Positions 29,263-37,485 of a DNA stretch of 64,000 nucleotides are shown here, piece after piece. The DNA is from Fimbriimonadaceae bacterium. Lineage in GTDB: Bacteria > Armatimonadota > Fimbriimonadia > Fimbriimonadales > Fimbriimonadaceae. Within the stretch, counting starts at the first letter, position 1, and each line of letters begins with the position of its first letter. The stretch covers positions 404,605-468,604 of the forward strand of contig JAHBTE010000001.1 of the NCBI GenBank assembly GCA_019638675.1, written 5' to 3'. The translations under genes were made by a program, and so were the position numbers. A model generated the notes under the pieces. It was not told the DNA's origin. It worked only from the letters and a program-made list of their open reading frames with translations, and did not search any database.

Positions 29263-30807
29263 GTGACCTCAACCATCCTGTTCGCCCTCTGTTTAGGAAC
29301 GCTTCCTACGGAAACGCCCGCCGGAATCTTCAGCCCCGCTGAAGCTGATCGGGTTGTAGCGTTTTGGAATGCTCCCGGGCGGCAAACGACCAGCGATTTA
29401 CAGCCCTCGGCTCCATTCAAGGTCATGTTTTCTCCGCAAGCCAGCGCATGGTTGCACGAGATGTACACCAAGCGCGATCCAGGTCAGCGGCTGATCCCAA
29501 CTAAACTCCCCACCCCGCGCACTCAACGCGATAAAGACTGGGATAGCTGGATTGATCAGCAACACGGTCACGATTACGCTTGGGCAACCGCTCTCGCCGC
29601 CTGGATGAACCAAGGCCTCGCGCAATCTACTAGCGATGCTCCGGTCAGCCGAACCGAACTGCCAACGCCCGCCGATCTCCAAGCCACCGCTGGAACCCCA
29701 CCGCCATTTTTCATCGTCCACCGCGCTCAAAAAGTCGTCGTTAGCTTTGATGACTACGTTGCGAGCTACGACGAAGGCGTGGACGTGCCGCGTAAGTATC
29801 CGTTTTTGCGGTCGGCGATCGGAACCGTGAGTAGCAGTTCTGCCCCAGGAACCGGCACCCTGAATATGCTTTTTCAGCAAGCCAAGCTGCCTGCAGTTCT
29901 GCAAAAGCCAGTGACCGCGGTTGCTTCGCTTGAAGGTGGATTTGAATCAATCAACACTTACGATACTGGCGGCGTGAGCTTGGGGATTATCCAATTCGCT
30001 TCCCTTTCCACTGGTCGCGGAAGCCTGGCGCGGCTTCTCCAAGAATTTAAAAACCGTGCGCCGGAAGAATTCTTCACGCATTTCCGGCAATTCGGCGTAG
30101 ATGTCGGCGCAGACGGACGGCTTTCGGTTGTTGATCCGCGCACAGGATTCGAGCAGTCCGGCCGGGATGCGGTGCGGTCGATCATCGAAGATAAGCGCCT
30201 TACGGCTGTATTCCAACGAGCGGCGAACAAGAGCCGTACGTTCCAAAGCGAGCAACTTCGACTTCTCGCCCAATCGTATAACCCGCTGAACCTCTCGGTT
30301 CCTGTTACCCTTGGTGGTCGGGCAACGGTTGTCAGCCTCAAACAGATTATTCGCAGCGAGGCGGGAATTGCTACGCTCATGGATCGCTTGGTGAACCGAG
30401 GCAACCTAGACCCGATCTCCTCAGTGATCTCGGCGGTCGCTTCGGAATACGGCATCACCACCACCGCCGGATTGATAGATGTCGAAAAGGAAATCGTTGC
30501 GCGAATGAGCTACCGCCATGATTTTCTCGCCATGCTTTCACTCAGCCAGCCAGCAGAGCCGAAGACGGCATTGCTCGCCCAGCAATCCTCTCATCCATCG
30601 ATCACCGGTTCGCTGGGTTCTGCTCGACCAAATTCAACACTTTCCGATGATGGTCAGGTTGCTCCGGCTGACCCATCAAAGTTCGGAACCTTCAATCCGC
30701 AGGGTAGCGCGCCAAAGCCAGAAAAACCCGCCGGAACCGAACCAGCGGTGCATAAAGATCCGACACCAAAAACAAACGCCGGGCCAATCACCATCCCGGG
30801 CGGATAG
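29263..30807 (+). CDS. Secreted protein with lysozyme-like motif (paralogue 1)
   Basis: A 514-residue exported protein starting at GTG 29263 with AAAGG seven bases upstream. A short signal sequence (TSTILFALCLGTL) is followed by a region rich in Pro and Arg. The best-conserved segment, at about residues 222-243, is SLEGGFESINTYDTGGVSLG then IIQFA. The Glu, the DTG and the G-x-I-Q-F order recall the active-site region of lysozyme-fold enzymes, so a muralytic or chitosanase-like fold is a reasonable guess but is unproven. It shares this segment, FRQFGVDV, and a later FRTEAG/IRSEAGIATLMDR block with the next gene. The C-terminal 70 residues are Pro/Lys-rich and low in complexity. Confidence 0.7.
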   Translation: MTSTILFALCLGTLPTETPAGIFSPAEADRVVAFWNAPGRQTTSDLQPSAPFKVMFSPQASAWLHEMYTKRDPGQRLIPTKLPTPRTQRDKDWDSWIDQQHGHDYAWATALAAWMNQGLAQSTSDAPVSRTELPTPADLQATAGTPPPFFIVHRAQKVVVSFDDYVASYDEGVDVPRKYPFLRSAIGTVSSSSAPGTGTLNMLFQQAKLPAVLQKPVTAVASLEGGFESINTYDTGGVSLGIIQFASLSTGRGSLARLLQEFKNRAPEEFFTHFRQFGVDVGADGRLSVVDPRTGFEQSGRDAVRSIIEDKRLTAVFQRAANKSRTFQSEQLRLLAQSYNPLNLSVPVTLGGRATVVSLKQIIRSEAGIATLMDRLVNRGNLDPISSVISAVASEYGITTTAGLIDVEKEIVARMSYRHDFLAMLSLSQPAEPKTALLAQQSSHPSITGSLGSARPNSTLSDDGQVAPADPSKFGTFNPQGSAPKPEKPAGTEPAVHKDPTPKTNAGPITIPGG

Positions 30808-30872: not shown

Positions 30873-32285
30873 ATGTCTGGTGTGAGTCTCGTGAAATACA
30901 CAGTTGTTCTAGCCTGCGCAGCATTTGTTGCCCCTCAAGTCATTCAAGCACAAGCTAAGCCCAGTTTTACAAATAACGAAAAACTAGAGATTTCCGCCTT
31001 TTGGGGGCAAACCGGAAGACACATCGTCCAATTGCCTGAATCCGCCGAAAACAAAGGCCCTTACGAACCCCGCCAGACGGCTGAAGGTTCGATATGGATG
31101 CGGAACTATTACACGGCTCGGGGAGATGCGGGCAAGATGGTTCCTACGGCGAACCCGGATGGGCAAAATGAGATTCATGCCAAATGGGATGCTTGGATTG
31201 AAGCCAAATACACTTGGGATGAGTGGCAATCGACGATTTCTTGCTGGGATCAAAACCAAAAGTATTTGAACCGCACCCTGCCCGCTCCGCAGGCACCGAA
31301 TGGAAAAACTCCCGATCAGCCAGGTCCGATTCCAGCCGATCTGAAAACGCTTGCTGGTGATCCACCCGCTTTGGTTGCTCCGGCGATGCCCAAGCAGTAC
31401 ACCACCAAGTTTGACGACTTTTTATTCACCGCGCCAGACAACACCAAAGTCCGCCGCAAGTTCCTGTACTACCGGTTCAGCAACGGCATCATGGATGTGG
31501 GCCAGCCCATGCGCGGCAAAACCATCGATGACCTCCGCCCATTGTTCACCAAGGCAGGAATCTCAGACAGCGAACTCAAAGTGATGGCGGCGGTTTCGTT
31601 GCTAGAAGGCGGTTTTGATTCGATCAACACATACGACACTGGATTTGTCAGCGTCGGATTCATCCAGTTTGCGAGCCTTAAAGGTGGAGCTGGTTCGCTG
31701 GGTCAGGTTCTGCTGGATATGAAACAGCAAACCCCAGATGCATTCCAAAACGATTTCAGACGCTTCGGACTTGATGTCACCGACCAAGGCGAATTGGTTG
31801 CGCTTGACGTGCTCAATCTACGGGAAACCGTTGGCCCAGAAGCCAATTTCACAATCATCAACGATAAACGACTTGCTTCGGTTTTTGTCCGTGCTGGGCG
31901 ATTGAGCGAACCGTTCAAGATCGCACAAATCCGCACTGCGAAGTCTCAGTACTATCCGGCCGAAGATACACTCACGATCAAGGTGGGCGAAAAAACCCAA
32001 TCGGCTAAGGTCAAGGATATTTTCCGAACCGAAGCGGGCCTCGCCACGCTCATGGATCGCAAGGTCAACACAGGCAAATACGGCGACCTGGTTTCGATCA
32101 TGGAAGGGTACATGGCGGACTACGGGTTCAGCGATATCAAAGAACTCGCCAAGCTGGAGTACCAACTCACCAGGGCGATTAAATGGCGCAAGGATTACAC
32201 ATCAGCCGAGTACGCGCTTTCTAAACCCCGCGATCTGGGCATTGCGATGAGTCGCGGTGGCGGCAAGGGTCGCGGGGGCGGATAA
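30873..32285 (+). CDS. Secreted protein with lysozyme-like motif (paralogue 2)
   Basis: A 470-residue exported protein. The signal peptide (KYTVVLACAAFVAPQVIQAQA) is slightly over 20 residues and is cut after AQA. It aligns with the preceding gene: VSLLEGGFDSINTYDTG with FVSVGFIQFASL at about 240-268, FRRFGLDV, INDKRLASVFVRAG, and TEAGLATLMDRKVNTG. The same Glu / DTG / IQF pattern is kept, which supports a common catalytic or ligand site. The start is ATG 30873 with AGGGGA ten bases upstream. The C-terminus is a Gly/Arg-rich tail. The two paralogues were probably created by duplication and follow atpC in one direction. Confidence 0.7.
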   Translation: MSGVSLVKYTVVLACAAFVAPQVIQAQAKPSFTNNEKLEISAFWGQTGRHIVQLPESAENKGPYEPRQTAEGSIWMRNYYTARGDAGKMVPTANPDGQNEIHAKWDAWIEAKYTWDEWQSTISCWDQNQKYLNRTLPAPQAPNGKTPDQPGPIPADLKTLAGDPPALVAPAMPKQYTTKFDDFLFTAPDNTKVRRKFLYYRFSNGIMDVGQPMRGKTIDDLRPLFTKAGISDSELKVMAAVSLLEGGFDSINTYDTGFVSVGFIQFASLKGGAGSLGQVLLDMKQQTPDAFQNDFRRFGLDVTDQGELVALDVLNLRETVGPEANFTIINDKRLASVFVRAGRLSEPFKIAQIRTAKSQYYPAEDTLTIKVGEKTQSAKVKDIFRTEAGLATLMDRKVNTGKYGDLVSIMEGYMADYGFSDIKELAKLEYQLTRAIKWRKDYTSAEYALSKPRDLGIAMSRGGGKGRGGG

Positions 32286-33515: not shown

Positions 33516-33652
33516 CTCTGAATTTCTCTACGCCTATTCTACACTGGCTCCCGCTAGGACTTTTGGCCCTTTCCAACCTTATGGCCCCTAGAGAATTACC
33601 AGGAACCTACCGTGATACTTACTAGGACGCACAGACTTCGACCGAAACGGCA

Positions 33653-33717
33653 CGATAGAGGCAACTCTACTCACGCAAAGCCACGGGTCTCACTGAGATC
33701 GCCGGGTTACCAAATCG
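33653..33717 (+). promoter_or_regulatory. Candidate c-di-GMP-I (GEMM) riboswitch in the flgM leader
   Basis: From 33653 the sequence reads CGATAGAGGCAA, then 33673-33690 ACGCAAAGCCACGGGTCT, a loop, and 33694-33710 GAGATCGCCGGGTTACC, closing with ATCG at 33714-33717. The ACGCAAAGCC joint, the GGGTCT...AGATCGCC stem and the final GGGTTACC are hallmarks of class I c-di-GMP aptamers; AGGCAA matches the 5' half of the core and CGAT/ATCG closes P1. The P2 hairpin, normally 12-18 bases between AGGCAAA and ACGCAAAGCC, appears shortened. GTG of flgM begins 27 bases downstream with AGAGG (33731-33735) as SD, so translational control is likely. Identification is from memory of the consensus. Confidence 0.62.
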
Positions 33718-33743
33718 GAGAGCACTAAAGAGAGGTCAAAAGC

Positions 33744-34004
33744 GTGAAAATATCAACTCAACAAATCGAACAAATTCAGAAAGGCGAACCGATTGCAAAA
33801 CATAAAGTTGAATCTGCGGTTATCAAGCTCACCGATGCTGATCTCGTCGCCGATGTCACCGCGAAAGTGAACGCGATGCCAGACCGAGAGGACATGATCG
33901 CTGATTTGAAAGCGAGAATCGAAGCCGGCAACTACAATCCAACCGGTGAAGAAATCACCGAAACCATGATCCGGCGCGCGATTGCTGACCGAATCAAAGA
34001 ATAA
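33744..34004 (+). CDS. flgM: Anti-σ28 factor FlgM-like protein
   Basis: An 86-residue protein starting with GTG, with AGAGG eight bases before. The C-terminal half has the FlgM pattern: DREDMIADLKARIEAGNYNP, TGEEITETMIRRAIADRI, that is, a short helix, R-I-x-x-G-x-Y, then E-x-I and a last helix. FlgM binds and blocks the flagellar σ28 factor (FliA/SigD) until the hook is complete and FlgM is secreted. The N-terminal half is variable as expected for a mostly disordered protein. It stands alone rather than with flgA or flgK, has a candidate c-di-GMP riboswitch in its leader and a strong terminator after it, and lies 1.7 kb from motAB. Confidence 0.85.
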   Translation: MKISTQQIEQIQKGEPIAKHKVESAVIKLTDADLVADVTAKVNAMPDREDMIADLKARIEAGNYNPTGEEITETMIRRAIADRIKE

Positions 34005-34052
34005 GCTTCATATCTGGGACACCCCAATCCTCCCAACCGATTACCCCGATTA

Positions 34053-34085
34053 CCCCGATTCCGATCGGGGTTTTCTCTTTTTAAT
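34053..34085 (+). terminator. Intrinsic terminator after flgM
   Basis: CCCCGAT (34053-34059) pairs with ATCGGGG (34064-34070) around a 4-base loop, followed by TTTTCTCTTTTTAATTT. The left arm is preceded by a repeat of ATTACCCCG, so two overlapping left arms are possible. It makes flgM a single-gene transcript. Confidence 0.9.
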
Positions 34086-35723: not shown

Positions 35724-36623
35724 CTAATGTTTTTGAATTTTGGGTTCGCCGATGTTGTCCGCAGGATTCATGGGCGGGCGGGCAAACACGCCTTCAATCT
35801 TTTCATCAACGATGTCTGTTGGCATCTTCAATGTCGCTGATTTCGCATACTTGTACGGCAGGAGAACAGTCACTCGTCGATTGCTGAAGTGCGTCGGATC
35901 TTCTGGTTTGCGAGGATCGTTGTCCGCTTTGCCTTCTGCACCCAGTATTTGTTTTTTATTGACTCCATGAGCCATCAGTAGTCGCCGAACTTGGTTAGCT
36001 CGTTCACTGCTCAAATCAAAATTGTCGTATCCCGTTCCTGGGTAGGGGCGGCTATCTGTATGCCCTTCAATCTTCATCAACCGCTTGGTTTTCGCAAGAA
36101 TGGGAGCGAGTTTTTCAAAAACTGCTCTGGCTTGATCGCGAATTGATGAGCTACCTAACTCAAAAAAGACTTCGCCGCTGGCTTCGTTCTCGATGAGTTC
36201 CAGAACTAATCCTTCTTCAGTTTGCTTAACTTCTAAATCGCCACTGCCTGCGAGTTTGCGGAGTGACGCATCGTCTTCAATCGCTTGTTCTATCTGGCCT
36301 TGCGCGCTATCAAGTTGCGCTTTATCTTCTAGCAATCCATCGTTTTGAGAATATGCTGGGTCACCATTAGCAACTGCATCCTTAGACGGGCCGATTTCTG
36401 GGTCAAAAAATGTTGGAGTCTTTCGACTGTAACCCACAGGATCGTTAAAGTATGCGGCGATGGCTTCCTTCTGTGTGTCCGACATCCCCAAAATCCACAT
36501 GACCATAAAGAATGCCATCATCGCAGTAACAAAGTCGGCGTAGGCAACCTTCCAAGCCCCGCCATGGTGACCATGGCCGTGCTTTTTGACCTTTTTGATG
36601 ATAATCGGGGTGCCTTCTTGCAT
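35724..36623 (-). CDS. motB: Flagellar motor stator protein MotB
   Basis: A 299-residue protein. The N-terminal HGGAWKVAYADFVTAMMAFF (about residues 19-38) contains the single transmembrane helix and its proton-binding Asp; MVMWILG follows. A linker of about 80 residues precedes the OmpA-like peptidoglycan-binding domain (FFELGSSSIRDQARAVFEKL, MKIEGHTDSRPY, NFDLSSERANQVRRLL and FSNRRVTVLL). MotB anchors the stator to the wall and, with MotA, uses the proton motive force. The helix sequence is of the proton type. It is 13 bases downstream of motA. The C-terminal extension after the OmpA domain is short and basic. Confidence 0.96.
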   Translation of the reverse strand: MQEGTPIIIKKVKKHGHGHHGGAWKVAYADFVTAMMAFFMVMWILGMSDTQKEAIAAYFNDPVGYSRKTPTFFDPEIGPSKDAVANGDPAYSQNDGLLEDKAQLDSAQGQIEQAIEDDASLRKLAGSGDLEVKQTEEGLVLELIENEASGEVFFELGSSSIRDQARAVFEKLAPILAKTKRLMKIEGHTDSRPYPGTGYDNFDLSSERANQVRRLLMAHGVNKKQILGAEGKADNDPRKPEDPTHFSNRRVTVLLPYKYAKSATLKMPTDIVDEKIEGVFARPPMNPADNIGEPKIQKH

Positions 36624-36636
36624 CTCCCTAAACCTC

Positions 36637-37485
36637 TTAAGCCGCCTTCACCGCTTCTTCAAGCTCGACGAATCCTGGTCGCATGCTCGGCTCTATTTGG
36701 CGACGAGCAAACTCAATGCAGGTAATCGGCGATTCGCCCCGCGAAAAGCTGAATAGCGCATGCCGAATGCAGTTCAGATACATCCCTTCAGCTTTCACTT
36801 TGGCGGTAATTGATTTAGCCAACGGGGCGCAGATGACGTACCCGATAAAGATTCCCATAAACGTACCGACAAGTGCGGCCGCAACCGAACCACCGATGAC
36901 TTCCGGACCATCGTTGATCTTACCCATGGTGATGATAACCCCCAAAACCGCAGCAACGATTCCAACCGCGGGCATCGCGTCGCCAACCGTGGTGAGAGCT
37001 TCGGCGGGGAGCAAATCTTCTTCGTGAGCGACATCTAAATCCATCTCCATCATTTCACTCAAATCGTGCGGGCCGACCGCCCCAGTGAGAATGACTCGGA
37101 GAGTGTCGCAAAAAAAGTGAACCGCGTGGTGATTGCCCAAAAATGATGGATATTTGCTCATGATTTCGCTTTCATTGGGGTTTTCCACGTGTTTTTCCAA
37201 CCCTAGCAGACCTTCTTTCCGAGCAACATTAAATAATTCGTACATCATCTTGAGTAACTGGACGTATGCTTCTTTAGCTGCCGACGGTTTGAGCAAACCC
37301 ATGACCGCCTTTATGGTGGCTTGGAACGTCTTCATCCCATAGGAGCCAAGAAAAATTCCGATTGCTGCCCCAAAAATAATGATGATTTCTGTTGGCTGAA
37401 TGAGAATTGCCACATTGCCGTGGTGAAGCACATACCCCAGCAACGTACAAACAACCCCAACTATGATTCCAATGAACGCGAACAT
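36637..37485 (-). CDS. motA: Flagellar motor stator protein MotA
   Basis: A 282-residue, four-helix stator subunit. Recognised are FAFIGIIVGVVCTLLGYVLH (helix 1), IIFGAAIGIFLGSYG (helix 2), the cytoplasmic region with LPAEALTTVGDAMPAVGIVA where helix 3 starts and the Pro typical of MotA is seen, and GTFMGIFIGYVICAPLAKSI (helix 4). Five MotA surround a MotB dimer. It lies upstream of motB and has a σ28-like promoter 59-86 bases before its start on the same strand. The divergent mutL gene begins 93 bases away, so the two share the intergenic region. Confidence 0.96.
   Translation of the reverse strand: MFAFIGIIVGVVCTLLGYVLHHGNVAILIQPTEIIIIFGAAIGIFLGSYGMKTFQATIKAVMGLLKPSAAKEAYVQLLKMMYELFNVARKEGLLGLEKHVENPNESEIMSKYPSFLGNHHAVHFFCDTLRVILTGAVGPHDLSEMMEMDLDVAHEEDLLPAEALTTVGDAMPAVGIVAAVLGVIITMGKINDGPEVIGGSVAAALVGTFMGIFIGYVICAPLAKSITAKVKAEGMYLNCIRHALFSFSRGESPITCIEFARRQIEPSMRPGFVELEEAVKAA

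Follow-up and report, generated by a model that had tools for sequence, protein, structure and literature searches.

A probable c-di-GMP ON riboswitch of ancient origin on the anti-sigma28 gene flgM of Armatimonadota

When c-di-GMP controls motility, it usually does so by way of protein effectors or flagellar brakes, or by riboswitches that govern early flagellar operons. The leader of flgM in a 64,000-nt stretch of DNA from a Fimbriimonadaceae bacterium (the whole of it referred to here as the window) raises the question of whether the second messenger also acts on the synthesis of the anti-sigma28 factor, and with which sign. The nearest named relative is ACE_ARM8 (Fimbriimonadaceae bacterium; Armatimonadota, order Fimbriimonadales), with 98% FlgM identity. 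The flgM product scores 33.5 bits against PF04316 (Pfam cut-off 25), and fliA is present in the genome. The gene and its end are located as follows.

33744–34004 (+): flgM, anti-sigma28 factor, 86 amino acids, GUG start (PF04316)
34052–34071 (+): intrinsic terminator after flgM, from a scan for terminator-like matches; single-gene transcript

On the opposite strand, 1.7 kb from flgM, lie motB and motA (35724–36623 and 36637–37485, minus). On the other side, 29263–30807 and 30873–32285 encode adjacent proteins that look like secreted paralogs and have no Pfam or NCBIfam match.

The Rfam model RF01051 (c-di-GMP-I or GEMM-I) is matched end to end at 33639–33714 on the plus strand with 45.3 bits (cut-off 35; E-value 1.2e-5 over 64 kb and 1.3e-7 over a 701-bp region), and this is the only match above the cut-off in the 2.85-Mb genome. 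The GUG of flgM is 30 nt downstream of it. An earlier note on this DNA had proposed a c-di-GMP-I riboswitch in front of flgM, and this significant covariance-model match, 30 nt upstream of a PF04316 open reading frame, bears it out. Our own covariance model, R2, gives the window aptamer 79.6 bits. RF01051 is the best model of its clan for this sequence, which does not classify as the c-di-GMP-I-GGC variant RF03167. By score and contact bases, the sequence identifies the aptamer as a member of the c-di-GMP-I family, and its target as flgM; binding of c-di-GMP would be expected from that membership. The parts of the aptamer are these.

33639–33714 (+): c-di-GMP-I aptamer, RF01051 (Rfam; R2 79.6 bits)
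33636–33641 (+): P1 5′ strand CUUCGA, pairing with 33715–33720; in relatives, 5 of the 6 pairs show changes on both sides
33715–33720 (+): P1 3′ strand UCGGAG, from the fold and comparison with relatives
33649–33652 (+): GGCA (cGGCAcg), its first G presumably G20 of Vc2; the G21–C46 pair reaches 33676
33656–33669 (+): P2 hairpin UAGAG-GCAA-CUCUA with a GNRA loop; 5 of 5 pairs covary
33673–33679 (+): ACGCAAA core, with 33677 as A47
33679–33708 (+): a short P3 that lacks the canonical CUAA tetraloop receptor (Rfam alignment, covariation, fold)
33704–33711 (+): GGGUUACC, with 33710 as C92, predicted to pair with one G of c-di-GMP

The element had been drawn at 33653–33717. Its actual extent is 33639–33714, with P1 probably formed by 33636–33641 and 33715–33720, and the CGAT/ATCG that had been taken as the closing stem do not form it. 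The AGGCAA at 33659–33664, read as the GGCAA element, is the GCAA tetraloop and flank of P2; the true GGCA is at 33649–33652. P2 is therefore not missing, and the hairpin described as shortened is intact (TAGAG-GCAA-CTCTA, 33656–33669). ACGCAAAGCC, the short P3 hairpin and GGGTTACC had been placed correctly.

The register, with the first G of GGCA presumably G20, follows the Vc2 and Geobacter aptamers, and we take G20, A47 and C92 to be the ligand-contact positions. All three bases are present in the window aptamer. Among aligned relatives, G20 is kept in 41/43, C46 and A47 in 43/43, and C92 in 42/43, with G21 and C22 invariant. Covariation supports P2 and P3, with 93.7% of cells paired and 64 double changes vs 17.2 in shuffles, and P1 covariation is seen in the window clade. 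In c-di-GMP-I aptamers, P2 commonly, though not universally, ends in a GNRA tetraloop that docks in a receptor within P3. The loop is retained here (GCAA in the window) and the canonical CUAA receptor is absent; a CUAA-type sequence is present in L191, L200 and L202, three loci outside the order. Judged from its sequence, the aptamer departs from the c-di-GMP-I family in having no canonical receptor, and the earlier note, which suspected a missing tetraloop–receptor contact, was right for the window lineage as far as the canonical receptor goes. The missing receptor belongs to a contact of the kind that matters in Cd1, where mutation of the tetraloop abolished binding (PMC9262584).

The pairing of aptamer and gene is conserved. 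In Fimbriimonadaceae, RF01051 is matched in 71 of 85 genomes, and 72 of the 75 matches, a sizeable minority of which score under the Rfam cut-off, stand directly before a FlgM open reading frame (phmmer 1e-14 to 1e-52). flgM was found in 78 of the 85 genomes. Seven of these have no Rfam match: two (L107 and L113) carry an aptamer with an enlarged P3, recognised by eye, the three of genus g16 have a leader with no room for an aptamer, and the two of genus g25 have flgM without it. The aptamer thus precedes flgM in 73 of 78 flgM genomes, against 0 of the 7 genomes without flgM; the elements are kept in relatives, a check that the earlier note had proposed, and nearly always before flgM. In g16 (L108–L110), the aptamer and the sigma28 promoter are both lost from flgM. 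L108 and L109 have a TATAAT-like box a few bases before the flgM start codon, and the third is similar; the mRNA of L108 and L109 is likely leaderless, to go by the position of the box.

A FlgM scan of named genomes yielded two relatives, and the distribution given here covers Armatimonadota, 291 genomes of which were scanned with R2. Each of the 22 order-level loci retrieved is followed by a FlgM-like open reading frame (family profile, E 1e-29 to 1e-5); 13 of the order-level genomes pass Pfam FlgM, and those of genus g41, G162 excepted, are too divergent for Pfam. Seven aptamer–flgM loci lie outside the order. L191/L220, L200/L221 and L202/L222 have a canonical GEMM-I aptamer (74–90 bits, CUAA-type receptor) before Pfam-confirmed FlgM, and in G222, G223, G224 and G233 the R2 and FlgM matches adjoin on one strand. 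In many genomes outside the order, flgM occurs with no R2 match. As the pairing also occurs outside the order, the link between aptamer and flgM is probably older than Fimbriimonadales. The units at L220, L221 and L222 stand beside genes that read as parA- or parB-like.

Upstream of the aptamer is a promoter-like element.

33589–33617 (+): sigma28-type promoter TAGAGAA-N13-aCCGTGATA; in relatives, TAAAGAA-N13-GCCGATAA

The form in relatives, TAAAGAA-N13-GCCGATAA, agrees with the enterobacterial sigma28 consensus. Sigma28-like elements are found upstream of the aptamer in 76 of 94 flgM leaders, compared with 4% of shuffled upstream regions. Transcription would start at about 33622–33626, and a sigma28-type promoter would put flgM in a sigma28 autoregulatory loop. 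The scan for terminator-like matches found no terminator in the flgM leader, and terminator-based control was rejected for that reason.

The segments between promoter and start codon that pair outside the aptamer are the following.

33627–33630 (+): ACGC, outer sequestering helix, pairing with GCGU at 33742–33745 over the GUG start
33634–33639 (+): anti-Shine-Dalgarno strand GACUUC, pairing with GAGGUC at 33732–33737 and overlapping the P1 5′ strand
33732–33737 (+): flgM Shine-Dalgarno region GAGGUC, predicted to be hidden when P1 is open

Three lineage-specific platforms are predicted. In each, a helix overlapping P1 hides the region of the Shine-Dalgarno sequence and start codon; A and B were examined for covariation, which is present in both. 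In type A, that of the window clade, a strand lying just 5′ to the aptamer pairs with the Shine-Dalgarno region, and often with the start codon as well. ACGC/GCGU is in the free minimum-energy fold and covaries in L010 (GACU/GGUC). Over 17 sequences, the anti-Shine-Dalgarno helix is 93% paired (covariation 0.48 vs 0.36 shuffled) and P1 is 78% paired (14 double changes vs 6.6 shuffled), counts that lean towards pairing because the arms were hand-picked. Both helices covary in the window clade despite their common strand. An OFF switch in clade A, with a helix P0 enclosing the aptamer, was rejected, as P1 shares the P0 strand. Type B is that of most of the family and its largest clade. Here P1 consists of GACAG/CUGUC. 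The UGUC at the end of the P1 3′ strand, together with UGAAAUC (UGUCUGAAAUC being the strand after P1), pairs with flgM codons 2–6, GAUUUCAGACA, looping out the Shine-Dalgarno sequence and the AUG. This helix is kept, at varying length, in 47/47 leaders; over 40 distinct leaders, 86% of cells are paired, with 13 double changes vs 4.9. Seven of the 13 fall at the wobble base of Ser4, where the pair is changed on both sides in seven sequences and fails in one. In type f3, read by eye from the sequences, the Shine-Dalgarno sequence GGAGGCAG is paired across a small hairpin with CUGUCUCC, the 3′ strand of P1. A conserved-looking hairpin, TTGCTGA...TCAGCAA, lies between P1 and the Shine-Dalgarno sequence in L151–L165 of family f3. 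Cognate partners pair better than shuffled ones (p = 2.5e-4 for A and 5e-5 for B), although these values are too small since the relatives are not independent. Flank-to-flank duplex energies were dropped as a measure of pairing because they are too permissive.

The direction of the switch was approached through the coupling of P1 to the opening of the ribosome site (−13 to +15). With P1 and start codons picked by best match, 80 of 84 leaders have a coupling below −0.3 kcal/mol, and no leader exceeds +0.3. Mean coupling is −3.56, −3.59 and −2.89, vs −0.34, −0.96 and −0.43 after the 3′ part is shuffled. Negative coupling means that P1, which the ligand stabilises, opens the ribosome site, making c-di-GMP the ON signal in these predictions. 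The predicted thermodynamics and the covariation together point to a platform that is coupled to P1. An accessibility model that forbade P1 pairs was abandoned, because the constraint removed other pairs too (energies 10–20 kcal/mol worse) and because only unpaired bases were counted although the clade B site sits in a hairpin loop; the coupling measure was used in its place.

We therefore favour a mechanism, inferred from the folds, in which flgM mRNA would be produced from the sigma28-type promoter. At low c-di-GMP, 33634–33639, aided by 33627–33630, would pair with the Shine-Dalgarno region and the GUG start. The ribosome site would be hidden, little FlgM made and sigma28 left active. With c-di-GMP bound, P1 (33636–33641/33715–33720) would form and reclaim the overlapping CUUC, freeing the ribosome site. 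FlgM would rise and hold sigma28, and late flagellar genes would go down, flgM included. More c-di-GMP would thus probably mean more FlgM and fewer flagella. On this reading, which we consider likely, a c-di-GMP-I riboswitch in the flgM leader would work as a translational ON switch and so lower sigma28 activity. The earlier suggestion that c-di-GMP could set FlgM, and hence sigma28, gains support, with a predicted ON sign and P1 competing with the site-hiding helices.

The sign could be the opposite if the ligand stabilised a short P1, CCGA/UCGG, stacked on the anti-Shine-Dalgarno/Shine-Dalgarno helix, in which case FlgM would be turned off and sigma28 promoted. In the free minimum-energy fold of the window species and its closest relative, the CCGA/UCGG stem (33642–33645/33715–33718) does coexist with the anti-Shine-Dalgarno helix, which makes the sign less sure for the window sequence. 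However, this stem is not conserved (it is absent from L021, L030, L050 and L010), whereas conservation and covariation are both seen for the P1 that overlaps the anti-Shine-Dalgarno strand. In clade B and family f3, moreover, it is the 3′ strand of P1 that forms the sequestering helix, and the coupling has the ON sign in 80/84 leaders. We regard the OFF sign as unlikely. Much the same chance is given to recognition of another cyclic dinucleotide, such as cGAMP, or to the loss of tight binding in Fimbriimonadaceae, where the receptor is gone and the P2 junction altered. The base equated with G20 is A (TAGCA) in L007, L008 and L039, as in c-AMP-GMP aptamers, for which such a change of a key nucleotide has been described (PMC9481103); a change of ligand within these three flgM leaders is possible. 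The order-level locus L155 also scores best with the variant RF03167, just over the cut-off. Against this, G20 is kept in the window and in 41/43 aligned relatives, along with A47 and C92, the deeper flgM loci of the phylum (L220–L222) have canonical aptamers with a CUAA-type receptor, and the genome encodes nine GGDEF domains.

It is very improbable that the leader is simply a conserved structure, constitutive or working through a protein or Rho, with its likeness to GEMM a relic. The family matches under the Rfam cut-off would fit such a reading, but the ligand-contact residues are among the most conserved and mutually exclusive helices covary in separate lineages. The c-di-GMP ON switch remains the preferred reading. 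In its widest form, as an ancient riboswitch on the anti-sigma28 gene within a sigma28–FlgM feedback loop, kept through three platforms of which one folds on codons 2–6, we hold it with somewhat less assurance, as probable.

Vc2, also GEMM-I (RF01051), is a translational OFF switch with control through P1 (PMC9262584). The flgM leaders resemble it in the aptamer core, the three-stem junction, the ligand-contact bases and the predicted control through P1. They differ in the target and the predicted ON sign, in the clade B anti-P1 strand that pairs with codons 2–6, and in the Fimbriimonadaceae loops (GCGA, GCAA or GUGA), which lack a CUAA receptor. Cd1 of Clostridioides difficile likewise ties c-di-GMP to flagella through a GEMM-I element, before the early flagellar operon of flgB, as a transcriptional OFF switch (PMC5386303); it is a terminator switch on an operon that includes sigD, whereas here the target is an anti-sigma factor and the control is predicted to be translational. 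The pilM element of Geobacter metallireducens, a c-GAMP GEMM-I ON switch (PMC9262584), shares the ON logic predicted here and the mutual exclusion of aptamer and alternative fold, but differs in ligand, in acting by transcription termination and in serving pilus genes. In Actinobacteria, c-di-GMP arms an anti-sigma factor against a FliA-like sigma in the RsiG-(c-di-GMP)2-sigmaWhiG complex (PMC8325347). The sign is the one predicted for flgM, with c-di-GMP increasing the anti-sigma activity that a FliA-type factor meets; RsiG itself binds c-di-GMP, whereas for flgM an RNA would set the synthesis of the anti-sigma factor. To our knowledge, FlgM is unrelated to RsiG.

GEMM-I as a sensor, and GEMM-I on flagellar genes, were already known; the regulatory point and the platforms we rate as new. 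In the open-access literature searched on flgM, Armatimonadota and GEMM or anti-sigma riboswitches, no flgM riboswitch had been described in what was read. If the reading is true, c-di-GMP acts via the amount of FlgM on the checkpoint that separates completion of the hook from the late genes, and the flagellar hierarchy is set by a second messenger that doses an anti-sigma factor. This would be an RNA-level counterpart of the RsiG–WhiG switch. It would also link the second messenger to sigma28 directly and in a testable way, in a phylum of which few members have been cultured. With platforms that change while aptamer and gene stay constant, the leaders would form a natural series on how riboswitch logic is kept while the mechanics shift.

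Two further observations were made. The other three family matches (L003–L005), which were read in part, overlap or precede subtilase-like frames, one of them confirmed as Peptidase_S8. Other GEMM-I copies of the family, canonical and scoring 67–80 bits, head subtilase-like genes whose products have a WG-rich C-terminus (L217:474–2348, L218:419–2233 and L219:853–2562). In the window genome, 10 kb from fliA, a 426-aa open reading frame (L215:136–1416, minus; C1 ~600335–601615) joins sigma-70 regions 2, 3 and 4 to a GGDEF domain downstream of them, a sigma factor–diguanylate cyclase fusion. Second FliA-like matches in frames of 424–540 aa suggest that this fusion is conserved across the family.
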